From Halohasta litorea (GTDB taxonomy: Archaea; Halobacteriota; Halobacteria; Halobacteriales; Haloferacaceae): a stretch of DNA of 64,000 nt. How positions within the stretch are numbered: the first letter of the stretch is position 1; every line of letters starts with the position of its first letter. Below, in pieces: positions 13,807 through 27,762 of the stretch. The notes under the pieces were generated by a model that did not search any database, was not told the DNA's origin, and saw only the letters and a list, made by a program, of their open reading frames with translations. A program made the position numbers and the translations under genes. The stretch spans positions 186,001 to 250,000 of the forward strand of contig NZ_JANHDJ010000003.1 in assembly GCF_024494645.1 (NCBI RefSeq), read 5' to 3'.

Positions 13807-14469
13807 TTAAATAACGTCGCCGCGGACGGTCGCGCCGGTCTGTTCGGTTCGGTAGCGGCTCACGCGTTCTGCGGCCGCCTCGGCCGTCTCACTGTCGACG
13901 CCCATCTGTTCGAGCGCCCCCGAGAGCGTCGGAAACGGCAGCTCGCCTCCGCGGAGCTTGCCGAGGAGGTCGTCATCCCACTGGCCGTCGACCCACAGGC
14001 AGACGCCGCGGGGATCGAGAATTTGTTCATAGGACTCCCGAGCGAGCGCGCCGCGAAGCCGCTGGGTGACGTTCTCGTCGAAACTCGCATTACAGACTTC
14101 GAGGTGGATCGGCTCGTTGCCGCCCAGTAGGTGGGCGGCCAGACATTTCTCGGGGGCAGCGTGGCCGTTGTCGTTGGCCCGGACGTACTCCGGGAACTGT
14201 TCGGCCCACTCGGCGGAGACGCTTTGGCCGATACCCTTGACCCCGTGTTTCTCGTGGTAGGCCTCAGCCGTCTCGCTGTCGCCGCGGAGCCGGATGTCCT
14301 TTTTCAGATAGATGTCGAGCCGTTCGATCGGGTCGAGGCCGAGGGCCACGTCGCCGTAGACCCAGATTTCCCGTACTGGGACGGGCATGGGGTCGGCATC
14401 GACCGTCTCGATGAGCTGCTCGACGCGGTCGAGGGCGCTGTCCCTGTCGAGTCGTTCGGAGTCTGCCAT
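13807..14469 (-). CDS. Haloarchaeal conserved protein, nucleotidyltransferase-like N-terminus (DUF7095-type)
   Basis: A 220-residue acidic protein. Its N-terminal region (VREIWVYGDVALGLDPIERLDIYL) looks like the 'GDVALG...D' element of minimal nucleotidyltransferase/GrpB-like folds, but no full catalytic triad can be confirmed. The rest has no domain I can name. The protein begins best at MADSERL (14469) rather than four residues upstream, because that ATG gives the conserved-looking acidic start. It is the last ordinary-looking chromosomal gene before the CRISPR island. Its function is unknown. Confidence 0.65.
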   Translation of the reverse strand: MADSERLDRDSALDRVEQLIETVDADPMPVPVREIWVYGDVALGLDPIERLDIYLKKDIRLRGDSETAEAYHEKHGVKGIGQSVSAEWAEQFPEYVRANDNGHAAPEKCLAAHLLGGNEPIHLEVCNASFDENVTQRLRGALARESYEQILDPRGVCLWVDGQWDDDLLGKLRGGELPFPTLSGALEQMGVDSETAEAAAERVSRYRTEQTGATVRGDVI

Positions 14470-14778
14470 TGGCCGATTCACGCACGCCGCAGAGAAACGG
14501 GTTTCGACCCAGTAGAGAACTATTTTGCAGTCCAGGAACCGTCAGACCACGACGCGATCGGCGATATAAATTACATACTGCGATACCAAATACCAGAGTG
14601 GGCGAACGTCAGAAGTTCGGCAGATGGATTTCTACTAACCATAAGATATGTGATAGATAGGCGACAATCATACATTACGTGTTTGAAAGCTCTGCGGGGG
14701 TACATCCAGATCCACACGTCTCAGTACTCCTCGGGATCGACATCGCATTGTTTCAAGCTCACTACGGGTACATCCAGA

Positions 14779-14817
14779 TCGCTACACCCACCAGTTCGCC
14801 AGCACAGTCTTGCCGCC
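14779..14817 (-). repeat. Array 1 spacer, near-identical to spacer at 16097-16135
   Basis: This spacer matches the one at 16097-16135 at 34 of 39 positions. All five differences are transitions. Read on the transcribed strand the sequence would encode GGKTVLANWW, a P-loop-like stretch, suggesting both spacers target allelic variants of one ATPase-like gene. The coding interpretation is an inference. Confidence 0.85.
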
Positions 14818-16096
14818 ATTTCAAGCCCACTAAGGTACATCCAGACCTCCATAGACCCGGTTCGTGTAGTCTTCATCAATGTTGTTTCAAACCGACAACG
14901 GGTACATCCGATCCTATCCAGATTATGCCGGGTATGGTGTCCTCTCCGTCGTTTCAAACCTACAATAGGTACATCCAGACCGTGCGCATATGGCAGTGGT
15001 GAACCTCGTGATCGCGTTTCAAGCCTTCAAGAGTACATCCAGATCCCGCCGTAGTGCGGGCATCCCTCGCAGACATCGGGGTTTCAAGCCGACAACGGGT
15101 ACATCCAGATCCGACCTCACCAACAAGCGGATTCACTCGCCGCCGTTTCAAGCCCATTATGGGTACATTCAGATCCGGCCGCATTACCATTGTATCGTCG
15201 TTACCGATTGGATGTTTCAAGCCCACTTTAGGTACATCCAGTACCAGCGGGCAGCGAACGACGTGGCACGGCTGTCTCGCGTTTCAAGCCCGTAAGGGTA
15301 CATCCAGACCTCGGATGCTTCAATTGAGCCGATCGCTGGCTGTGCGTTTCAAGCCGACGATGGGTACATCCAGTACCGTGTCTTTATTCGTTGAGTAGAT
15401 AACGTAGCGATTGTTTCAAACCCACAACGAGTACATCCTGACCTGTCCCCCGGACACGCATATCGCCCCATGTGTACCGGTTTCAAGCCCGTAAGGGTAC
15501 ATCCAGACCAAGCCTCCTTGATGCGTGAATCGCGTCCACGCGGCGTTTCAAGCCTTCAGTAGGTACATCCAGAACCCGTCGCAGGCCGACAAGCGATTAG
15601 GCTTCTATACGTTTCAAGCCCACAATGGGTACATCCAGACCGATCAACGTCGCCGACTGGTCCGATCAATGGCTCGTTTCAAGCCTACAACGGGTACATC
15701 CAGATAGCATCTTCTCATAGTCGAACGCACCCATGTTATGCTGGTTTCAAGCCCGCAACAGGTACATCCCAACTGACGACGAGCGCGATTGCGCCCATGA
15801 TCAAGACCATGTTTTAAACCCACTAAGGGTACATCCAGTCCGATGACAACGAATACGGTCGGTAGGTGCGTATTTCAAGCCCATTATGGGTACATCCAAA
15901 CCGACTGCGTGGACGATTGAACACAACGATTTCTGGATATTTCAAACCCAGAAGGTACATCCAGACCGATCCCGACCGTCTCCGTTCTCGGCTACATCGT
16001 CATGTTTCAAGCCGACAACGGGTACATCCAGTCTCTTCTCAAGTGCGGCGCGGATCACGGCGGGGTAGTTTCAAGCCCACTAAGGGTACATCCAGA

Positions 16097-16135
16097 TCAC
16101 TGTACCCACCAGTTCACCAGCACAGTCTTACCGCC
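16097..16135 (-). repeat. Array 1 spacer, near-identical to spacer at 14779-14817
   Basis: This is the partner of the spacer at 14779-14817, twenty units closer to the leader and therefore presumably acquired later. On the transcribed strand it would encode GGKTVLVNWW, differing by synonymous changes and one V/A exchange from its partner. Confidence 0.85.
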
Positions 16136-16696
16136 GTTTCAAGCCCACAACCGGTACATCCTGAAAGACCAGAAGACCAACTCTGTCTGTTTCGGGAGTG
16201 CGTTTCAAGCCCGTAAGGGTACATCCAAGCCTCGTTCTCCGGCTCACCGAGTTCCTTGATTGCGCCATTTCAAACCCAATAAAGGTACAATCCAGTGCCC
16301 GACCGTAATTGTGGACTCGCCCGCACTCGTCGCAGTTTCAAACCCTCCGAGGTACATCCAGAACCGAAGGCATCCACATCGCGGCGGCCAACAAACCGAT
16401 GTTTCAAGCCTACAACGGGTACATCCAGAACGCTTACCCCCCAACCCGACCGGAGGAGCCGCACCCGGTTTCAAGCCCACTACGGGTACATCCAGACCAC
16501 TGAAAGACATCGCTCCGTCGGTCCTCGGCAACACGTTTCAAGCCTACCACTGGTACATCCAGAACGACGACGGCACTATCTACCGCGATCCAGCGGGCTG
16601 GTTTCAAGCCAACAACAGGTACATCCAGACCCAGCAAGGCCACTAAGACCTCTCTCGCTCTCTGCACGTTTCAAGCCGACAGTGGGTACATCCAGA

Positions 16697-16802
16697 CCTA
16701 CCCGAAATCAGGTAGTTACACTATTCTCTTGCCTGTTCACACTAAGTTGTTTCCGTCGACTATCAATCACTCCAAAACCCACCGAGGGTCGACTGAAACA
16801 GA
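16697..16802 (-). promoter_or_regulatory. Leader of CRISPR array 1
   Basis: This region lies between the leader-proximal repeat and the cas3 stop. Its segment 16734-16799, read on the minus strand, is homologous to 25147-25211 in front of array 2. Shared blocks include CGGTGGGTTT, GTCGACGGAAACA and TTAGTG-GAACA. Next to the first repeat there is a small hairpin (CTACC...GGTAG). Because cas3 ends exactly where the leader begins, the array may also be transcribed by read-through from the cas operon. Confidence 0.85.
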
Positions 16803-19664
16803 CTACAGAAGCCGGTGTGTTATAGACTTAGATTCGTCATTTGACAGCCCTTTCCAACCATATAACCCCGTATTCTCAGCTGCCTCTTGGTCAAGTAGAT
16901 AGAGATCGTCATCCAGTTGATGTGCGACCTGCGTAATTGGATTCTCATCTCGATTACGCGGTACGTCACAACCAATATGCCGCAGACACTCTCGAAGCGA
17001 GAGCTTGTGAGACGTGTGGTTGATCTGATCTGCTCTCCGATAGGCTTCTAAGAGCTTGTCTTCAGTTGATGACTGTGACACATAGACGGTGATTTCTGGA
17101 CGGTCGTCGTCTATCAGTGACGTTTGACTCATCGCCGTACCGTCGACAGAGTCCATATCCGGCGTCTGGTGTGGGATCTCGGTTGCGATCTCCTCGCGGT
17201 AATCATCGTAACCCCCCAAGAAATCTTGTTGTGAGATGTGTCTGCGATCAGTCCTGATGTGCTGTGTGAGGGACTGAACCGTCTTATTGAGTTCATTAAT
17301 CCCACTTTGGTTATAGACGTACTCAGCGGGGATACGGTTCATATTCGCAGGATCTTGGGCGTCCAGCTGCCATACTGTGACCTTACCGTTCCCGATACCG
17401 TACTCGTAGTCACGGTTACATCGCCCTGCGGCTTGGACGAGGCTATCGTAGGGGGCAATATCGCGGTATAGACTCTCGAAGCTAATGTCGACGCCTGCTT
17501 CAATTAGTTGGGTCGTGAGCGCAACGATTGTCGGTAGATCGTCCCGATCGGCCTCAGAACGCGGATACTGTTCGAGCAAGTCCGAAAGCCCATCGAGTAT
17601 CCGTGAACGGTCACACGGTCTGTTGCGGGTCGTAAGCGGGACTACGAGAACGTCGGCATCGGTCGAAAGCAATGACTCAACAAGATCCTCTGGTGTCGGG
17701 AGTTGGTTGTAGACTGTATCCCTATCAAAGTCACTCGGAGAGTCTAGATTCTCTGGGAGCGGTGGTTCTGCGTCTGTTATCAGATCACGATAGACTGTAT
17801 GGATATTGGCGTACTCAATTTCGGTGTCAACATCGAGGTCGGCTATCAGTGATTCAGCAACGGCTCTCGCATTTGAGACGGTATTATGGATCGACAAGAT
17901 ACTATCCCGGCCGCTGCCGATCTCGTCTCGAAGGCGTTGGGCGGCGGTTGTTGGTGGAATCGGATCGTCGGCTGTCACTGACTGGTCGACGGTGACAGTG
18001 ACGTTTTCGGGAAGCGTGACTGACGGTGCTAATTCAGCATCTTCGGGTGTTTCAGAGGTTGGGGTTGGATACTCAAGCGGGGGATGGGTCGCACTCATCA
18101 AGATGACTGTTGCATCGAATACCGTGTAGAGAGTGTCAATCAGTTGTTCGACCCGGCTCCACCATGTCGGCGGTGTAGTCTGTGGTTCGTCGATGATGAT
18201 GGTACTATTGTAGAACTGCGGGAGTTTCGTCGCCTGAGATTTTGATGGACCGTATAGCGATTCCCACAGCTGGACAGTCGTACTAAGTGTAATATCGCTG
18301 TGCCACGACTGGTAGGCCATTTCCGTCACATCGTCTGAGTCTGTATCAACATCCTCTTCATCGCCATCTGAGGTATTGTCTGCAAGATAGTGGTCGACAC
18401 CGATTGAAACGTCTGTCTGCAAGGCGTTGGTGTCGGTATTAAACTCACTCGCTGGGTCGAATAGCGTCTGATACACATCTTCTGTCTGTTCGATGATCGA
18501 CGTGTACGGCAAAATGTGGATCAGTGGGCCACTCTGCTCGCTTGCAGCATTGAGCTTGAGAGCGGCCTGTGTCACGGTGAGTGTCTTTCCGGCTCCGGTC
18601 GGGAGAGTGACCCGATAGACCCCGGATTGTGTCGGGTTCTCTTCTCCTGATTCTTCTGTGTCCGGTGTCGTGTCGGTCACGAACGCATCGAGTTGGTAGT
18701 CCTCGCCTGAGTTTGTCGGTGGCTCTCCTCGTGCTTCCGTAGAGTGTTCCCGACTCTCACCAGTGAGTGATTCGACCCGTTTGAGCGTTTCTTGACGGGT
18801 TTCCTCGCGTTTCTGATTCAGTAGTTCTTCTGGTGTCTCTGCATTCGTCGGTGGCGAGAGTTCTGTATCGACGTAGGTGTCGATGACAGCTGGATCTGGT
18901 AGATTATGGCTGGGTGGCGAGAGGCCAGCGGAAGCAGGAGTATCAGCCCCTTTCAACCCGCCCCATAGTTCAAGCAGATCGTGGTACACATCCACCGATT
19001 TGTAATTTGATTTGAGCGAGACGCCCGTCAGACCGGATATGTCGTCGGCGATACCTTCTCGTAACCCGTCCTCAACGATGTCGATGAACCGTTGCCATGA
19101 GATTTCAGGCGGAGTATCTGGGTCGGCCAGTAGCCCATCATTTTGGGATAAATGCTCAAGCAGCTGCGTAGCGATCTCCCGGCTCTGAGTGTGTTGATGG
19201 ATGTTATCAACTTGATGTTGAACCGTCTCCCACCGCGTTGTGTCGACGAACCGGTCAAACGAATAACTCTCAAGATCGGGCAGCGTCCCGTGGTGTCGGG
19301 CCACAGCTATCGACGCCGGGAAGGCAACCCGAACGGGATACCCTAGCTCTCGGAGAACCCACCATGTCGTGACACCACCGATGAAGCTATGATCTGCAAC
19401 CCGCCCCGGCGGTCGGTCGATCGATGGAACAGTAGTGTTAGCGTGGTCTTCTTGCCACCACGTCGTGATTTTTCCAATATCGTGACACCACGCCATGACG
19501 TACAAAACTGGTCGTGTTGGCGTTCCATCAGCGAGTGTCGTATCCGGCGGTGTGTTTGCCAGACAGTGATTCCCGACAGCAGCTAGATGATCGAGGACCG
19601 GTTCGTGTGTCCCCGACGCTATCGGGTGGTCGGTATGTGCAAAGTAGATCGGATCGTTTGTCAT
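16803..19664 (-). CDS. cas3: Cas3, HD nuclease-helicase of type I-B CRISPR
   Basis: A 953-residue Cas3 with both halves fused. The N-terminal HD domain has MAWCHDIGK (H61, D62) and further histidines in HSFIGG and ARHHG. The superfamily 2 helicase has the Walker A LPTGAGKT, the DEAD-box variant IIDEPQ, motif III MSATHPP and motif VI QAAGRCNRD. It is recruited by Cascade to unwind and degrade the invader's non-target strand. It is the last gene of the wHTH-cas6-cas8b-cas7-cas5-cas3 operon, 14 nt after cas5. All catalytic motifs are intact, so interference may be functional. In most haloarchaeal loci cas4, cas1 and cas2 would follow; here the array 1 leader does. Confidence 0.95.
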   Translation of the reverse strand: MTNDPIYFAHTDHPIASGTHEPVLDHLAAVGNHCLANTPPDTTLADGTPTRPVLYVMAWCHDIGKITTWWQEDHANTTVPSIDRPPGRVADHSFIGGVTTWWVLRELGYPVRVAFPASIAVARHHGTLPDLESYSFDRFVDTTRWETVQHQVDNIHQHTQSREIATQLLEHLSQNDGLLADPDTPPEISWQRFIDIVEDGLREGIADDISGLTGVSLKSNYKSVDVYHDLLELWGGLKGADTPASAGLSPPSHNLPDPAVIDTYVDTELSPPTNAETPEELLNQKREETRQETLKRVESLTGESREHSTEARGEPPTNSGEDYQLDAFVTDTTPDTEESGEENPTQSGVYRVTLPTGAGKTLTVTQAALKLNAASEQSGPLIHILPYTSIIEQTEDVYQTLFDPASEFNTDTNALQTDVSIGVDHYLADNTSDGDEEDVDTDSDDVTEMAYQSWHSDITLSTTVQLWESLYGPSKSQATKLPQFYNSTIIIDEPQTTPPTWWSRVEQLIDTLYTVFDATVILMSATHPPLEYPTPTSETPEDAELAPSVTLPENVTVTVDQSVTADDPIPPTTAAQRLRDEIGSGRDSILSIHNTVSNARAVAESLIADLDVDTEIEYANIHTVYRDLITDAEPPLPENLDSPSDFDRDTVYNQLPTPEDLVESLLSTDADVLVVPLTTRNRPCDRSRILDGLSDLLEQYPRSEADRDDLPTIVALTTQLIEAGVDISFESLYRDIAPYDSLVQAAGRCNRDYEYGIGNGKVTVWQLDAQDPANMNRIPAEYVYNQSGINELNKTVQSLTQHIRTDRRHISQQDFLGGYDDYREEIATEIPHQTPDMDSVDGTAMSQTSLIDDDRPEITVYVSQSSTEDKLLEAYRRADQINHTSHKLSLRECLRHIGCDVPRNRDENPITQVAHQLDDDLYLLDQEAAENTGLYGWKGLSNDESKSITHRLL

Positions 19665-19678
19665 GCGGCTCTCCTCAC

Positions 19679-20617
19679 TTATTTGAAGATGACCGTCTGC
19701 TCATCGACGGTGGCCGCATAGTCGGTGTCGACTGGAAGAGAGCCTGCATCCTCGCGGTACTGGTATGCAGTATAGGCCGTCGTTCGGCGTGTTTTGAACC
19801 CATCGTCGACCTGTTCCATCTCTGCTGGTGTCTGTTCGGTCGTGAGTTGTGTATTCGCCTGCATCTGCACGGTTCCGGCAGATGACGGTACAGCAGAATC
19901 GACTTCGACAGCTCCATCTCCGTCGACTGGCGTAGGTGAGAACTCACCGTGATACTCAATCGACGCAAGACACTCTGACAGGCCGAGTGTTGGTGTATAG
20001 TGGCTTTCTCCTGTCTCAAGAAGCTGTTTCAATTCGTTGTAGTAATCCTCCGAGCTTAACCAGATGTTGATCCGATACCGAACGTCTCGAAGCATCGTGT
20101 GGGCAACCCGTTGATGCACCTTCCCCTCGTCAATCTCCGAGGGATGCTTTTCGTATTCAAGTGTCAACCCACCCCCTGAAACAGATTTCATCTGATCGGG
20201 GTCGGTGTTCCGGTGTTTGATCGGCATACTGATGTCTCGAAGCGGATTCTCAACACTCACACTGAGGGCCGAGTGGGTAAGGTCGAACAACTGGTAGTAG
20301 CTGTTGACCTCTAAGCCGAGCATCGCCGCGATCATCCCGTTCAGTGTCGTTCGGGGTGGCAAACCGTAGGTGAGCCGCGTCGACGAGGTTTCGATCTTAC
20401 GGAAGTGTGCGAACGGTGCTGTCACAGTGAACGATAGACACTTCTCGGGTATCTCGTGAACCGACGCTAACTCCTCGCCGGTCGGCTCATAGTTGGGTGT
20501 CGTGTATTCTCCGGATTCATCATCGCGGTTGGTACTCTTCGTCGGTCGGTCGATTTCTGTCTTCTCTTCACTACTCCCTGACGCAAAATCAGAGAGCGTC
20601 GTATTCTTTTCCGACAT
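19679..20617 (-). CDS. cas5: Cas5, type I-B Cascade subunit
   Basis: A 312-residue protein with the Cas5 RAMP signature near residue 65: LSFTVTAPFAHFRKIET, then YGLPPRTTLNGMIAAMLG, the typical 'xPPRTTLxGMxxAxLG' element. Cas5 caps the 5' handle of the crRNA in Cascade. The first 50 or so residues are an acidic, low-complexity extension, and a long acidic loop follows residue 220; both are common haloarchaeal additions. It sits between cas7 (16-nt gap) and cas3 (14-nt gap), so it is cotranscribed. Confidence 0.93.
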   Translation of the reverse strand: MSEKNTTLSDFASGSSEEKTEIDRPTKSTNRDDESGEYTTPNYEPTGEELASVHEIPEKCLSFTVTAPFAHFRKIETSSTRLTYGLPPRTTLNGMIAAMLGLEVNSYYQLFDLTHSALSVSVENPLRDISMPIKHRNTDPDQMKSVSGGGLTLEYEKHPSEIDEGKVHQRVAHTMLRDVRYRINIWLSSEDYYNELKQLLETGESHYTPTLGLSECLASIEYHGEFSPTPVDGDGAVEVDSAVPSSAGTVQMQANTQLTTEQTPAEMEQVDDGFKTRRTTAYTAYQYREDAGSLPVDTDYAATVDEQTVIFK

Positions 20618-20633: not shown

Positions 20634-21749
20634 CTACTCATACAGCGAGATTCGATCCACGTCCACACCGAGTTCAGATTCGATGTAGTCGGGGAGAGTT
20701 TGATCCAGCACGTTAGAATCTTCTTCTAACGTGAGGCGGGTGTCCTGTAGGATGTGAACTGTCTGGATTCGTTCGGCGGCTTCTTCCAGTGTCTCCATCA
20801 ACCCAGAGATGTCGACAGTCACGTCGTGGATGCTGGTGAGGGCGTCGACGTCGTCGCTGTTCTCTCCGAGATCGAGAGTGCGATCTAGGTTGCCCATGTG
20901 GAAGCCTTCGTCGTACTCGACACGGAGGTAGAGGCGGGGGTGCTGGCCGCGTTTGCTCCGGCTGTTGGCTTGATTCTTGACGCCCTTCCAGAACAGTTCA
21001 TCCAACCACTCGACATCTGATTGCCGGAGTCGAGTGTCGTCTGCGTTGTGTTCGTTGATGACCGCACTGAACCCGTAGAGGCCGTACACGATTCGATGAT
21101 CGTCCAACTGGAACCCGCCTTGTTCGTTCCCTCTGTCTTCATTGGCCTCATCACCACTGTCGTCGTTCTGGTTTGTGCTAATAACCGACGTGAGTGAGTT
21201 GTACCCGCTGTTTTCCCGAACACGGTGGTATGTCCGACCGGGTGAGATTTGAACCGGACCTTTTAGATGGGCCGGAAGGTGGTTGTCAATCTGTTTGGCG
21301 ATTGCCTGCGCCTCGTCGTTCTCGTCGATCGAGAATGAGAACGTCGCTCCGAAAAACCGAACATCGACGGCTGTATCGAGGAAATCGTCGAAGAATCCCT
21401 CGCCAATATCTTCGGGGCTGTCGACATCTGCGATTGTCTCGGCTAGCTCTGATCGGGTTTTTCGGTTCCCTGCTTCGGTGCGAACATCTGCGATATACAC
21501 ACCCTGATCGTCGCCACACTCAACGGCCATCTGATCGCGGAGATAGCGTTTGAGCCGAACGTCAGTGATGATTCCCTGTCCTGTTGATGGGTCTTGTCGT
21601 GGCTTGTTACTCGGACTGAGTGGGTCGCCGTTCGGGTTCGCATCTTGAGCATCCATCAAGAACAGAATCTCCGATCGGTTCTCGACGGAAGTGAATGCGT
21701 TGTTGTCTGCCTCTGTGCCTTCGCTGTCGGTTGGGTCTTGAGTTGACAT
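20634..21749 (-). CDS. cas7: Cas7 (Csh2), backbone subunit of type I-B Cascade
   Basis: A 371-residue protein opening its fold with SEILFLMDAQDANPNGDPL, the canonical Cas7/Csh2 start, then ITDVRLKRYLRDQ and VRFFGATFSF. The C-terminal HILQDTRLTLEEDSNVLDQ region is also typical. Cas7 polymerises along the crRNA spacer and forms the Cascade backbone. The start at 21749 (MSTQDPT) is preferred over an in-frame upstream ATG that would overlap cas8b. An acidic insert (residues about 218-233) is probably a haloadaptive loop. Confidence 0.94.
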   Translation of the reverse strand: MSTQDPTDSEGTEADNNAFTSVENRSEILFLMDAQDANPNGDPLSPSNKPRQDPSTGQGIITDVRLKRYLRDQMAVECGDDQGVYIADVRTEAGNRKTRSELAETIADVDSPEDIGEGFFDDFLDTAVDVRFFGATFSFSIDENDEAQAIAKQIDNHLPAHLKGPVQISPGRTYHRVRENSGYNSLTSVISTNQNDDSGDEANEDRGNEQGGFQLDDHRIVYGLYGFSAVINEHNADDTRLRQSDVEWLDELFWKGVKNQANSRSKRGQHPRLYLRVEYDEGFHMGNLDRTLDLGENSDDVDALTSIHDVTVDISGLMETLEEAAERIQTVHILQDTRLTLEEDSNVLDQTLPDYIESELGVDVDRISLYE

Positions 21750-21771
21750 TGGTAGTCTCTCCTGTGAGTGA

Positions 21772-24018
21772 TTACGTGTGTGTCTGCGCTCCAAACGCCA
21801 TGCCGAGTGCGACGTGGTACTGAATATCCGACGACGATAGCTCCCACTCACTGACCGGCATGGTGGTGAGGTCTTCGGTCAGCTGGCTTGTCTGAGTCTC
21901 GTACTTCCAGATGTTGTCCCCGTTTTCAGCGGTCGCATACGTGTTGATGAGATCGAGTACGTCTGTGACGTATTCCTCGACGTTGTGTTTTGTAATCGTC
22001 GACGGGCTGAGTCGGGAATTGAGTGGTTTGGTTCCCTTCGACGATTGATACGCCGAAACGGTCGTAATGAGTGACCCTAGTGTGAATACTGCTCGCCGTG
22101 ACGGGCTTTCAGCTAACACCGGTTGTTCGGTTATCATCCGCTCGTAGGCTTCTTTTTCTGCTATCGCTCGTTGCTTGGCTGTAACGTCTGTACTCCCGTC
22201 TTCGTCTTGATCGGCACTATCGTCTGCGTCTGTCATAGGATCTGTGTCGGTGAGATCGGTGTCACTACGATTCTTCTGGGCTGGGATACAGTACGGTTCG
22301 TCAGTGTCCGGCGTCTCTGGAAGGTCTACATCGAGTAATCCAGACCGGCCGAGCGTGACTAACTGTGCAAACTGCTGGATGATCTGAAGGGTTGGAACAC
22401 GTCGACCATCATCCGCTGTTGGGTCGTATCTATCCTCAAGATGCGGAATATAGGCGTCCAACAGTTGACTCAACGAAATCGGCTTCTGTTGAAGTAACTG
22501 CTTGTAGAACGCATATCCCGGCTCGTTCTGGTCGACATCGTCCTCATCGGTCGTCGTGACTGTCGTATTGATGAACCAATACGGCGTCGTGATCTGGGCG
22601 AGGAAATCTGTTTCAGGGGTGGCAAAGTCCCATGTGTACGTCTCGAACAAGCCTGTCTCCGACAGATCACGGGCGACTCCTGTAGCCTCCTGTGCAATGT
22701 CGACCGTCGCAAGCATACTCCCGCCTTTGACCTCTGCAATCGCCCGGTTGCGGTCACTCTGGTAGTTGACGATAGCGACTGTCCAGAACCGAAGCGATTT
22801 GACGATTGATTCGGGGACGTGATCTGAATCGACTTCTTCCTGAATCAGTCGGTAGAACTGTTCGATTGGGGTGTGCGTGACACCTTCATCATCCTCGTCC
22901 GGGTCGGAACGGGTGTACGTCTCCCACAGTAGCTCGTAGAGATACCGCATCTTCTGTGGGGTCTGTTCACCCCCAAAGTACGGGAGGTGGTAGAGACTCA
23001 ACCCAGCTGACTGTTTGCAGGCATCAAGGAACGGCGTTGATTTGCCGATCACAGCCGACGTTTCTGCTGTGAATGGGTGGGTCGCGGCCGAAAGGTCACG
23101 ATTCAAATGGGGCATCCACGCCCGCTTCTTGCCTGTATAGAGCGATAGCGGGGCCGCCCCCTGACCGAACACTTGCTGTTCAGCACCACTCTGGACGTAT
23201 CCGACAGCCGTCCCTGACGCATCACAGTCGTTCTTTGTTCGCCACTTCCCCTTTCGTTGGGCCTTCATCGCCTCCAATAGGACATCCATGTCTGCCGGAT
23301 ACAGCCACCTATCATCGTCGGGATCGGCCGGAGGTGATAGTTCATCCGCAGACACAGACTCAGATGACTCATAGAACCGTATCGACACAAGCCGAGTTAC
23401 ATCCTTACTGTCGTCTACAGTGAGTTTGGTTTCGATCTCATCTCTCAATTCGTCCATCTCCTCCGATTCGTGGAGCGACTTGATTTGCTCGATGATCCAG
23501 CCATCTTCGTGATCGTCGATCACTGGCTGAATGAGGTCTTGGGTCGGCCACCCATCAATAATATCACTGAACTTATTTTCAGAGATGTAACTGAAATCCT
23601 TGTATGTGGACTTATCAGGATCTATACCGCCTTCTTTCGATGTCTTCTGCGTGATGCTGTGGTCGACACCATTGCTGGCTTCGTACTCGGAAAACGCACA
23701 CCGGTCGATATGCTCTTTTGTGCCGGTAACGACCGAAGTTCCGATGGGTGTGACTGACCGCTGTTCTCGATTCAGTTGCACATCAAGGTAGATGATTGCC
23801 TGCTCCTCACCGATGATAGAGTTGACTTCCATCGGCGTTAAGAACTGCTGGTACTCCTCGGAAGCGGCATACGGAGTTGGTTCCTGCCCCAACTCAAGCA
23901 TCTTCCCGTAGATGTACTGAAGGTCTGTCAACGATCCCGGCTCGCGGCCACCGGGGAAAATCACACCCTCAAACTCGGTGTCAGGAATGTCACCCTCGGG
24001 ACGATAGGCACTACTCAT
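21772..24018 (-). CDS. cas8b: Cas8b (Csh1), large subunit of type I-B Cascade
   Basis: A 748-residue protein in the position of the Cascade large subunit between cas6 and cas7. N-terminal TDLQYIYGKMLELG and the middle LSLYTGKKRAWMPHLN are Csh1-like, and the C-terminal third carries a long acidic linker (about residues 595-620) before a helical end. Cas8b recognises the PAM and supports Cas3 recruitment. Large subunits diverge quickly, so the call rests on size, operon position and partial motif resemblance. Confidence 0.88.
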   Translation of the reverse strand: MSSAYRPEGDIPDTEFEGVIFPGGREPGSLTDLQYIYGKMLELGQEPTPYAASEEYQQFLTPMEVNSIIGEEQAIIYLDVQLNREQRSVTPIGTSVVTGTKEHIDRCAFSEYEASNGVDHSITQKTSKEGGIDPDKSTYKDFSYISENKFSDIIDGWPTQDLIQPVIDDHEDGWIIEQIKSLHESEEMDELRDEIETKLTVDDSKDVTRLVSIRFYESSESVSADELSPPADPDDDRWLYPADMDVLLEAMKAQRKGKWRTKNDCDASGTAVGYVQSGAEQQVFGQGAAPLSLYTGKKRAWMPHLNRDLSAATHPFTAETSAVIGKSTPFLDACKQSAGLSLYHLPYFGGEQTPQKMRYLYELLWETYTRSDPDEDDEGVTHTPIEQFYRLIQEEVDSDHVPESIVKSLRFWTVAIVNYQSDRNRAIAEVKGGSMLATVDIAQEATGVARDLSETGLFETYTWDFATPETDFLAQITTPYWFINTTVTTTDEDDVDQNEPGYAFYKQLLQQKPISLSQLLDAYIPHLEDRYDPTADDGRRVPTLQIIQQFAQLVTLGRSGLLDVDLPETPDTDEPYCIPAQKNRSDTDLTDTDPMTDADDSADQDEDGSTDVTAKQRAIAEKEAYERMITEQPVLAESPSRRAVFTLGSLITTVSAYQSSKGTKPLNSRLSPSTITKHNVEEYVTDVLDLINTYATAENGDNIWKYETQTSQLTEDLTTMPVSEWELSSSDIQYHVALGMAFGAQTHT

Positions 24019-24022
24019 ACGA

Positions 24023-24829
24023 TCACATCCCCGTCAGTACCGGCTCTTGTTTGGATGTGAGCGAAAGCGTACCCAACCCGAAGTTGTTCCGTTCGCCAAT
24101 CCCTGCTCCCAGTGCAAGATTAAGGGCGTCTCTGTGGGCCTGACTCCGCACCTCGTAGTCAAACTCCCACTTGCTCAGGACGATTCTCTGAGTGTGGTCG
24201 ACTGTAACACGCAACGGTATCGAATACGTCTTCTGTAGCGTTTTACGGTCGAATAGCGGGCCATGAATATCCTCCGGGCTGTCTCTCGACTGGTCAGTAA
24301 GTGACTCCCACTTGCCTGTGAGATTTTCTCTGACCCGATCAACAAAGGCTTGTTCCGGATCGTCTTCTGACCAATAGTACACATCCGACCCCGGATTCTC
24401 TAATCCAAACTCGGATACTCGGTCATTAGGGACTGAAATTAACACCCCGGTATCCGATTCAAGCGTTCCCTGAGTTCCGACCTGTCCAACATCAACTGTT
24501 GATTGGTCAATCCCCTGTACGGTGAATTGCATTTCACCGATATTGAACGATGGATCACTCGACACTGACTGGGCTATGTGACCGACGATCTCCGGATCGA
24601 CCGTGTTCACGACTAACTGCCGTGTCTCGCCCGCCGATACATCACCCCACGGCATGAGTTCGGTGAACGAAATGCCAAGTGTCGACGGTGTGTCTCCCTT
24701 TTTCGATTCCTCAATGATTGGATCGGGTATCCGATTGAGGACCGCACCGTGCAACTTTCGATGGTACATATCCGGATACTGGCAGTCGGTGTCTGCTTCC
24801 AGATAGAGAATGAGCTTCGTTACGTTCAC
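24023..24829 (-). CDS. cas6: Cas6, CRISPR repeat endoribonuclease
   Basis: A 268-residue Cas6. Two RAMP-like halves are followed by the C-terminal glycine-rich loop GAGIGERNNFGLGTL, the hallmark of the family. It cuts the repeat 8 nt before its 3' end, leaving a 5' handle, here CTTGAAAC or TTTGAAAC. The strict conservation of that handle and of GGATGTACC in otherwise variable repeats fits selection by Cas6 binding and cleavage. A GTG start at 24829 overlaps the stop of the upstream wHTH gene by 4 nt, and cas8b follows after 4 nt, so translation is probably coupled. Confidence 0.94.
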   Translation of the reverse strand: MNVTKLILYLEADTDCQYPDMYHRKLHGAVLNRIPDPIIEESKKGDTPSTLGISFTELMPWGDVSAGETRQLVVNTVDPEIVGHIAQSVSSDPSFNIGEMQFTVQGIDQSTVDVGQVGTQGTLESDTGVLISVPNDRVSEFGLENPGSDVYYWSEDDPEQAFVDRVRENLTGKWESLTDQSRDSPEDIHGPLFDRKTLQKTYSIPLRVTVDHTQRIVLSKWEFDYEVRSQAHRDALNLALGAGIGERNNFGLGTLSLTSKQEPVLTGM

Positions 24830-25086: not shown

Positions 25087-25247
25087 ACCTCACTACATAG
25101 TAGTCACGCTAAATGACATAAAACCTTGTATTATTCAATACATGGATTTCAGTCGGCTCCCGGTGGGTTTGGAGGTTATTGAGGGTCGACGGAAACAGTT
25201 TAGTGAGAACAACTAATAGAAGGCTCTAACAACCCGATACGGGATTG
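25087..25247 (+). promoter_or_regulatory. Leader of CRISPR array 2 and divergent cas promoter region
   Basis: A 161-nt AT-richer region between the first cas-operon gene (minus strand) and array 2 (plus strand). The segment 25147-25211 is homologous to the leader of array 1, sharing TTTCAGTCG, CGGTGGGTTT, GTCGACGGAAACA and TTAGTG. A small hairpin (CCCGataCGGG) precedes the first repeat. AT-rich DNA around 25110-25140 may hold TATA elements for both directions. Confidence 0.85.
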
Positions 25248-26687
25248 GGTTCGGATGTACCTCCGGTAGGTTTGAAACCTCACCGCGATCGGGCTCGGCG
25301 GCGCAGCAGTATGGGTTCGGATGTACCTCTGGTAGGTTTGAAACACCCCGGAGTTGGTGACGTAATTGACCCCTGCGGGGTTCGGATGTACCTCTGGTAG
25401 GTTTGAAACCTCACCGACGGCTCGGGGACGTACCGCGTCAGAATGGTTCGGATGTACCTCTGGTAGGTTTGAAACGCCCAAATCGAGAGCGCGCTGCCAG
25501 CTATCGACAACAGGTTCGGATGTACCTCTGGTAGGTTTGAAACAAAGCCGAACACGCCGACCGAGACCTCACGGCGTACTGGTTCGGATGTACCTCTGGT
25601 AGGTTTGAAACGGTAACTGCCAGCAGATGATTGGGTTGCGTGCTGGAGGTTCGGATGTACCTCTGGTAGGTTTGAAACATGGGCGTCGTCGAAGACTACC
25701 TCGACCTCCAGCGGGGTTCGGATGTACCTCTGGTAGGTTTGAAACGGGCTCGTGAGACCACAGGGCGTGGAACACAGACTCGGTTCGGATATACCTCTGG
25801 TAGGTTTGAAACACCGGGAAATCCCGGGTTTTACCGGCTCTGGCCGGGGTTCGGATGTACCTTTGGTAGGTTTGAAACGTCACCCTCGACGACGGACGGA
25901 TCGGCCGGGTCGAGGTTCGGATGTGCCTCTGGTAGGTACCCGTAGGAGGATTGAAACCCGCCGTAGTCAGTTTTCGACCCTATCGGACCTGTTCCGTCTG
26001 GATGTACCCATTGTCGGCTTGAAACGTCTGCATGGCTGTCGCCTGTCGGATAACCTGAGTCGGTCTGGATGTACCCGTTGTAGGTTTGAAACTTGACTCG
26101 GCGGTGGTAGGTTGAGACGCCGTATTCGTAGTCTGGATGTACCCGTTGAAGGCTTGAAACGAGGCGAATACGCTGAGTCCGTACCTCCAACAATTGGTCT
26201 GGATGTACTCGTTGTGGGCTTGAAACGTTGAGGACGCAACCGAGGACTGGCAGATTGAGAAGCGTACTGGATGTACCTGTAATGGGCTTGAAACGTGATT
26301 CGGTGTATGATCCAGCCCGTCTCGGTTTCGAGGGTCAGGATGTACTCTAGTGAGCTTGAAACAACGGCGTACCTATCGCGGAACAACTGATCAAGTCGTA
26401 TTGGATGTACCTATTGAGGGCTTGAAACCCTGCTGCCTCAACTGCTCGGAGTCCTTTGAGAGTACTGGATGTACCATAGTAGGCTTGAAACAACGCCATC
26501 TGGTGTGATGAACCCGCCCACTACGATAGCATTGGATGTACCTATAGTAGGCTTGAAACGGGGGAACCGCACCGCAGTCAGCTGGTTTCGGGATATGGAT
26601 GTACCTAGTCGGCTTGAAACAAAAATGCGCTCTACACCACTCCGAACCTGATCAGGTGGTCTGGATGTACCTGTCGTGAGTTGAAAC
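25248..26687 (+). CRISPR. CRISPR array 2: 22 repeats, 21 spacers, two repeat types
   Basis: Transcribed rightward from the 25087-25247 leader. Repeats 1-10 are 31 nt of type A (GGTTCGGATGTACC...GGTTTGAAAC); seven are identical and three differ by one base each. Repeat 11 is a 44-nt chimera. Repeats 12-22 are type B, 29-31 nt, ending CTTGAAAC, and all differ in the core and often in the first four bases, like array 1. The last unit (26658-26687) ends ...GAGTTGAAAC and is degenerate. Spacers are 32-38 nt. The type A core ACCT...AGGT is a self-complementary variant of the ACCC...GGG core. The array ends 1 nt before a possible ATG of the downstream orc/cdc6 gene. Confidence 0.97.
25914..25957 (+). 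repeat. Chimeric 44-nt junction repeat of array 2
   Basis: The unit begins as a type A repeat (GGTTCGG, then CCTCTGGTAGGT) and continues with ACCCGTAGGAGG plus ATTGAAAC, the second half of a type B-like repeat. It marks the exact boundary between the homogeneous and the hypervariable halves of the array. Its structure suggests joining of two arrays or repeats at the short GGTACC/GGT homology. Confidence 0.9.
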
Positions 26688-26706
26688 TATGACTTCTTTC
26701 GGAAGA

Positions 26707-26727
26707 TTCGGAAACTACCCACTTCCG
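26707..26727 (+). promoter_or_regulatory. Shared upstream motif, copy 1 (before orc/cdc6)
   Basis: The motif TTCGGAAACTACCCACTTCC plus one base has an inverted-repeat flavour (CGGAA...TTCCG). It ends 30 nt before the ATG at 26758. A TATA-like TTTATTTATC follows at 26728-26737, at the right distance for a leaderless transcript starting at that ATG. Confidence 0.6.
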
Positions 26728-26757
26728 TTTATTTATCAAGAGGACGTATCAGATCCC

Positions 26758-27762
26758 ATGATTACGGACGCACGGGTGCTACAGCCCGAATTTGTCCCGA
26801 ACGACGTAAAGCACAGATCGGCAGAGGTGAGCCACCTATCGGATACGCTCCGCCCGATCGTCGACGGCGACCGGGCGACCAACTCCCTACTGTATGGTCC
26901 ATCAGGAGCCGGGAAGACGTGTATCGCCCAGTTCACCATCGAACAGTTGCGAGAGAACGTCGTCGACCTGAACTACCAGTACGTGAACTGCTGGGAGGAC
27001 CACACTCGGTTCAAAACGCTCTACAGGCTGTTGGACGGCATCGAGAGTACATTCGACATCCACCGACAGTCGACGCCCAAGGACGAACTGTTGGAACGGC
27101 TGAGAGGCTACGACGGCCCACCCTACGTCGTGATCCTTGATGAAGTCGACCAGCTACAGGATAAGAGCCTGCTGTACGATCTCTACCGGATGCGCGACCT
27201 CACGATGGTTCTGATTGCCAACCGAGAGGAAGACGTGTTCAGTACGCTCGATGACCGGCTGAACAGCCGTCTTGAGTCGTGTGCGCGTATCAGATTCGGG
27301 CAATACGATATTCGAGAGTTAGTCACGATCCTCGAAGATCGCGCTCGATGGGGACTTGAGCCGGATGCAATCGACACTCAGGAATTAGAGACGATTGCCG
27401 ACTATGCAGCCGGGGATGCACGGGTGGCTATCGGGATTTTCCGAAACGCCGCACGGGTTGCTCGACGCAACGGTGATGATCGGATCACGGTCGACGTGAT
27501 TGACGGGGTAGTTTCGGAAGCGAAATCGGAAATCCGTCAAAAGACGACAGACAAGCTCACTGACCACCAACAGGCTCTCTACGATATCATCAAAGAAGCC
27601 GGAGAGATCAGCGCGGGCAACCTCTACGACTCTTACTGTAAGGCGGTTAAAAACCCGAAAACCCGTCGAACAATGCGGAACCACCTCTCGAAACTGGAAC
27701 AGTACAACCTCATTTTCGCCACCGGGAAGACGAAAGCACGTAGCTACCAACCCTATTCGTAG
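26758..27762 (+). CDS. Orc1/Cdc6-family AAA+ ATPase
   Basis: The protein has 334 residues from the ATG at 26758, or 357 from an in-frame ATG at 26689 that abuts the last CRISPR repeat. The inner start is favoured by an upstream TATA-like element and shared motif, and because [14 protein letters not shown] resembles family N-termini. Walker A is YGPSGAGKT and Walker B is [10 protein letters not shown]; sensor regions and a C-terminal winged helix ([20 protein letters not shown]...) follow. Orc1/Cdc6 proteins bind origins and load MCM. Accessory copies like this one are common on plasmids and integrated elements. No clear origin repeats are visible beside it, so a replication role here is unproven. 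Confidence 0.9.

Follow-up and report, generated by a model that had tools for sequence, protein, structure and literature searches.

Repeats of haloarchaeal type I-B CRISPR systems have been mapped functionally. Nucleotides 1–12 bind Cas6, with the primary site at 2–8, nucleotides 11–15 and 18–22 are the two anchors for the Cas1–Cas2–Cas4 complex, and the last eight nucleotides bind Cas5 (PMC9458426). The repeats have no conserved hairpin, and Cas6 is thought to wrap the unstructured RNA (PMC9458426). Two kinds of described systems come closest to the locus reported here. In CreTA, one or two ectopic repeats guard a toxin RNA, and one of them, psi-R1, has lost the adaptation anchors while retaining the nucleotides binding Cas5 (PMC9458426). 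The other kind is represented by provirus-encoded haloarchaeal I-B systems without cas1, cas2, and cas4; according to the available portion of that report, their repeats hardly differ from those of complete systems, and degenerate repeats are not mentioned there (PMC12596717).

The locus lies in a window of 64,000 nucleotides of the genome of Halohasta litorea (contig NZ_JANHDJ010000003.1, positions 186,001 to 250,000); its features are listed in Table 1. It resembles the provirus-encoded systems, as far as the available portion of that report describes them, in combining interference genes and an array with the absence of the adaptation module, but differs from them in its degenerate repeats. 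The loss of the adaptation anchors and the retention of the Cas5-binding nucleotides are shared with psi-R1 of CreTA; unlike the latter, the repeats of the window also keep the Cas6-binding nucleotides, and more than 40 degenerate ones sit in two full, regular arrays, one of 31 and one of 22 units, each with a leader. We consider it likely that this I-B system is limited to interference and that the repeat segment serving adaptation alone is under relaxed constraint.

Table 1. Features of the CRISPR–Cas locus of Halohasta litorea; positions are those of the window.
Feature	Position	Strand	Remark
CRISPR array 1	14678–16697	−	31 repeats, every one with a diverged core; 30 spacers of 31–39 nt
Array 1 leader	16698–16800	−	By alignment, homologous to the leaders of array 2 and BOL3-1
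cas3 (HD nuclease and helicase)	16803–19664	−	
cas5b	19679–20617	−	
cas7/csh2	20634–21851	−	Open frame as listed; the real start is probably downstream
cas8b (Csh1/TM1802 kind)	21772–24018	−	
cas6	24023–24829	−	
Winged-helix protein, 86 aa	24826–25086	−	Head of the cas operon
Array 2 leader	25130–25248	+	Placed by leader alignment
Array 2, leader-proximal block	25249–25878	+	10 near-identical repeats GTTCGGATGTACCTCTGGTAGGTTTGAAAC
Array 2, junction repeat	25916–25958	+	Hybrid and elongated: left part of the young repeat, right part of the old one
Array 2, distal block	25996–26688	+	11 degenerate repeats resembling those of array 1

The cas genes form a minus-strand operon, cas6-cas8b-cas7-cas5-cas3, in which every frame is open; the presence of cas8b, cas7, cas5, cas6, and cas3 within one operon assigns the system to type I-B. 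Matches to the NCBIfam models of Cas5h, Csh2, and Cas6 were above the cut-off, those to Csh1 and the Cas3 core were significant but below it, and Pfam Cas_TM1802 was matched above the cut-off. The winged-helix protein encoded at the head of the operon is possibly its regulator. Compared with their orthologs in Halorubrum sp. BOL3-1, the cas genes have dN/dS values of 0.07–0.15 at pS of 0.63–0.70; these low ratios average both lineages and are no proof of present function.

Neither Cas1 (PF01867) nor Cas2 (PF09827) was matched anywhere in the genome of H. litorea (99.9% complete), while the Haloferax volcanii controls were positive. Cas4 was not found at the locus; the sole Cas4-family match in the genome was weak and fell in a frame of 938 aa on a different contig. 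The adaptation module cas4-cas1-cas2 of complete I-B systems was not present in the locus. The archaeon seems to have kept the interference machinery and lost the genes for adding spacers. Since the genome is a draft assembly of 34 contigs, the presence of Cas1 on an unassembled plasmid is possible. An earlier, sequence-only reading of the window could not take into account that cas1 and cas2 are absent or that a role in acquisition has been published for the repeat middle. Directly past the distal end of array 1, where a complete relative has adaptation genes, a DUF7095 protein is encoded (13807–14481).

Array 1 is transcribed from the minus strand, and its leader is at the right, between the array and the end of cas3. 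Array 2 (25249–26688, plus strand) is located on the opposite side of the cas operon, and its leader is homologous to that of array 1. It consists of 22 units: 10 near-identical leader-proximal ones, one hybrid junction repeat, and 11 degenerate ones. The sequence-only reading had overlooked this array, including its distal half with degenerate repeats. The predicted ATG of an Orc1/Cdc6 gene (26689–27762) directly follows the last array 2 repeat (26663–26689); the gene may be transcribed together with array 2, or its start may be misplaced.

The motifs TTTCAA and TACATCC had been reported as intact in 29 of the 31 array 1 repeats each, and both counts were exact on recount. The variability of the middle between them was also confirmed, but the number of its versions, given as 26, was not: there are 25 among the 30 non-terminal repeats by alignment and 23 among the units with both motifs exact. 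Leader-proximal units of array 1 do differ from each other, as had been claimed (cores CCCACTGTCGGC, CCTGTTGTTGGC, and CCAGTGGTAGGC). We aligned 41 degenerate repeats, 30 from array 1 (terminal repeat excluded) and 11 from array 2, in a 30-nt numbering. Core positions 14–20 were changed in 106 of 287 cells (37%), whereas end positions 5–13, 21–22, and 24–30 were changed in 15 of 738 cells (2%; Fisher P 2.8e-49). Changes are thus about 18-fold rarer in the Cas6-binding part and the handle. Positions 1–4 are loose as well (44/164 cells changed). TGTAC and most of TTGAAA are invariant, with the seven positions between them showing 41–83% consensus. The heaviest change occurred at positions 14, 15, 17, and 20, while A11–C13 and G21–G22 were kept; 11 of the 41 repeats have core deletions, with losses of 1–2 nt among them. 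Positions 14–20 and 23 account for 115 of the 174 changes in the repeats of the window, and decay is found mainly in and between the two published anchors. A hairpin with compensatory pairs was considered and rejected: pairing across the core was at the chance level (25 pairs vs 25.0 expected), in line with the lack of a conserved hairpin in haloarchaeal I-B repeats.

The missing adaptation genes, together with the decay of terminal repeats common to many arrays, could be taken to indicate a dead array that simply decays. In that case, according to the sequence-only reading, mutations would be spread across the whole repeat, but with 2% of the ends and 37% of the core changed they are not. The Cas6-binding part and the handle are avoided by changes by a factor of about 18, and the cas genes are open, with dN/dS of 0.07–0.15. 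Moreover, the handle is lost in terminal repeats and kept in internal ones: 5 of 287 handle positions were changed in the internal repeats of the window vs 35 of 120 in the terminal repeats of other arrays, where the handle has no spacer to serve. We therefore regard plain decay as very unlikely. Young uniform arrays contained 13 mutation events outside terminal repeats, of which four were in the 5′ zone (1–10), four in the core (11–22), and five in the handle (23–30); with such an even spread, the mutation input is not core-biased, whereas old arrays are core-biased in comparison with young ones (P 0.005). Taken together with this mutation spectrum, the contrast between internal and terminal handles points to purifying selection on each unit. 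The earlier proposal that the ends are selected while the core is free to vary was thus borne out for the Cas6-binding end and the 5′ handle.

A search for the repeat pattern in 391 haloarchaeal genomes revealed it only in the genome of H. litorea itself and in Halorubrum sp. BOL3-1, where the locus resides on the 163-kb plasmid p163 (NZ_CP034693.1). The same pattern gave single matches only in 84,980 GTDB genomes and IMG/VR; those from GTDB were in unrelated bacterial contigs and were taken as chance. No close relatives of Cas8b were found in a scan of genome contigs, and no description of whole arrays of this pattern was found in the searchable literature, which leaves most subscription journals outside. 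Both loci have the gene order cas6-cas8b-cas7-cas5-cas3-array, with proteins 66–81% identical and homologous leaders. However, nearly all of the 26 repeats of BOL3-1 are GTTTGGATGTACCCGTTGTGGGTTTGAAAC, in contrast to the variable repeats of the window, and their core CCCGTTGTGGG is the consensus core of the window. Near-identical repeats with the same core indicate that variability is not built into the system. Cas1 was not found in the genome of BOL3-1, and its array demonstrates that uniform repeats are possible without Cas1; presumably, its spacers were acquired in trans, or the loss of Cas1 is recent. In contrast to the open cas6 of the window, cas6 of BOL3-1 is split by an ISH3 element (transposase gene; L056:10097-12303), and since its array is pristine, BOL3-1 has probably lost crRNA processing recently.

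No age gradient was found in array 1 (number of changes vs position: rho 0.10, P 0.61), but one was evident in the distal block of array 2 (rho 0.78, P 0.004). Neighbouring repeats of array 1 were no closer to each other than distant ones (4.41 at lag 1 vs 4.20 overall; permutation P 0.86). The lack of position dependence and the unlike neighbours are what would be expected if all repeats had started out alike and changed independently. The independence is imperfect because some core variants of array 1 recur at distant positions (CCCTT-ACGGGC, for example, occurs three times), and core column 4 is associated with column 6. This recurrence and the hybrid junction repeat of array 2 would also suit an old mosaic, in which recombination joined several arrays with different repeats before the whole was frozen; such an origin is, however, extremely unlikely, as array 1 has no blocks of like repeats, and its variants centre on a single consensus, which is the BOL3-1 core.

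The 391 genomes were searched for matches to the spacers of both arrays and of BOL3-1. TTC is the PAM in related haloarchaea, and it was present directly upstream of the matches of three spacers: array 1 spacer 25 (a1s25; two genomes, 3 and 4 mismatches), array 1 spacer 3 (a1s3; one genome, 5 mismatches), and array 2 spacer 19 (a2s19; a terminase-like gene, by sequence, in two genomes, 7 mismatches). Such matches to mobile elements beside a TTC PAM are what is expected of a haloarchaeal type I-B system. Two more spacers of array 1 matched spacers of other arrays in the same register: a1s16 in G251, with 5 differences, and a1s14 in G302, with 8. Among phage records, no strong protospacer was found for arrays 1 and 2; a2s19 matched the Halorubrum virus Humcor1 terminase gene at 86%. 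Counting one match per spacer, with frames partly assigned by hand, about 18 of 29 spacer differences were at third codon positions, an excess which indicates the divergence of viral genes rather than random spacer drift. Spacers 9 (16094–16135) and 29 (14776–14816) of array 1 correspond to one protospacer position and differ in five bases; they were probably taken from related viruses. Spacers 17 and 19 of BOL3-1 form a similar pair.

Judging from these matches, the five recognisable old spacers (a1s3, a1s14, a1s16, a1s25, and a2s19) seem to have drifted much less than the cores, in a sample biased by the fact that only undrifted spacers can be recognised. Either the spacers are selected like the handles, or the cores were changed by another process. 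This low drift is the main weakness of explaining the cores by drift under relaxed constraint and the main support for error-prone repeat duplication, in which the middle of the repeat is miscopied at each acquisition, for example, when the single-stranded repeat folds during gap filling. Besides the seemingly far lower mutation of old spacers, miscopying would account for the confinement of changes, including the 1–2 nt deletions, to the core. However, errors made in this way would be inherited and make neighbours alike, which was not observed; the array of BOL3-1 and the young block of array 2 were copied faithfully; and mutations of young arrays are not core-biased. Error-prone copying during adaptation, which had been among the hypotheses of the sequence-only reading, thus appears unlikely.

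The relation between the loss of Cas1 and repeat decay was analyzed among family genomes with a Cas6 relative; the loci were chosen from search matches, the sample is small, and phylogeny was not corrected for. Strong decay of the main array was found in three (G000, the genome of the window; G161; G302) of the eight Cas1-less genomes (the others being G012, G018, G222, which is BOL3-1, G362, and G372) and in none of the 14 Cas1-bearing ones, the main arrays of which are uniform except for terminal repeats (P 0.036; P 0.014 with eight Cas1-bearing plasmid loci added). Among the eight genomes without Cas1, at least four contain arrays that are largely uniform, so the loss of Cas1 is not sufficient for decay; in G362, five units were seen, too few to score. 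Like array 2, the arrays of G161 and G302, both without Cas1, have a uniform leader-proximal block (about 14–15 repeats) followed by a heterogeneous one, but they belong to other repeat families and are changed more mildly than those of the window. The I-B array of G302 (L123:8195-11837) has 14 identical repeats, then about 40 heterogeneous ones, and its variability is highest in the core. In G161, variability in the 5′ zone equals or exceeds that in the core, chiefly owing to position 9. Some repeat variants of G302 recur in runs and at distant places. Nor is the loss of Cas1 strictly necessary: on a Cas1-bearing plasmid of Halomontanus rarus, where one array is uniform over at least 116 units, a seven-unit side array upstream of cas6 (L212:9325-9800) varies mildly, mostly in the core. 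This fits the view that stale arrays lose the core, rather than that Cas1 loss as such causes it. A complete I-B system on a plasmid of Halorussus caseinilyticus, cas6-8b-7-5-3-array-cas4-cas1-cas2-array, has a leader motif similar to that of the window and uniform repeats.

Divergence might also have been selected for: identical repeats recombine and delete spacers, so that arrays which are not renewed survive only if diverged. A similar argument was made for creA repeats (PMC9458426), and an array without Cas1 is unable to replace lost spacers. However, identical cores in array 1 are commoner, not rarer, than chance (6 pairs vs 0.9 expected, P 0.005), adjacent repeats do not differ significantly more than random pairs, and uniform arrays persist in other Cas1-less genomes. 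Diversifying selection of this kind is, in our opinion, quite improbable. More broadly, it is unlikely that the cores are actively diversified, be it by a mutagenic acquisition step confined to the middle or by selection against identity, so that a non-renewed array keeps its spacers. Of the interpretation offered by the sequence-only reading, selection on the ends is supported, while error-prone copying and the suppression of recombination are not. Relaxed constraint fits the data better than error-prone copying, active diversification, or the plain death of the array.

Under relaxed constraint, the repeats of the arrays would once have been identical, about GTCTGGATGTACCCGTTGTGGGCTTGAAAC, and each would have changed independently since. 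Purifying selection on each unit would keep what a crRNA needs, namely the 5′ part, bound by Cas6, and the handle, bound by Cas5, while the middle, which carries the Cas1–Cas2–Cas4 anchors in related haloarchaea, would no longer be needed and would drift. Cas6 probably wraps an unstructured repeat, and this would explain why the linker can vary widely in sequence and lose 1–2 nt. Adaptation would have been lost first, with decay following; the uniform block of array 2 must then be a later addition, made by acquisition in trans or by recombination. The units of the arrays would still be processed into crRNAs, and interference would still work at this locus. A demanding assumption of this explanation is that every unit stayed under selection during the time needed for 37% of the core cells to change.

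The 41 degenerate repeats represent a natural mutational scan, which separates, within 30 nt, the needs of Cas6 and Cas5 from those of acquisition only, and which agrees with the functional map from Haloarcula hispanica. If the linker is indeed tolerant, cleavage by Cas6 would be indifferent to the sequence and length of the core and would be lost on changes in GGATGTACC. Such arrays may be missed or cut short by array finders that assume near-identical repeats, and core decay could mark loci that have ceased to acquire spacers. The locus suggests that a CRISPR system can survive for long as immunity that is fixed and no longer adaptive, with selection acting on each unit.
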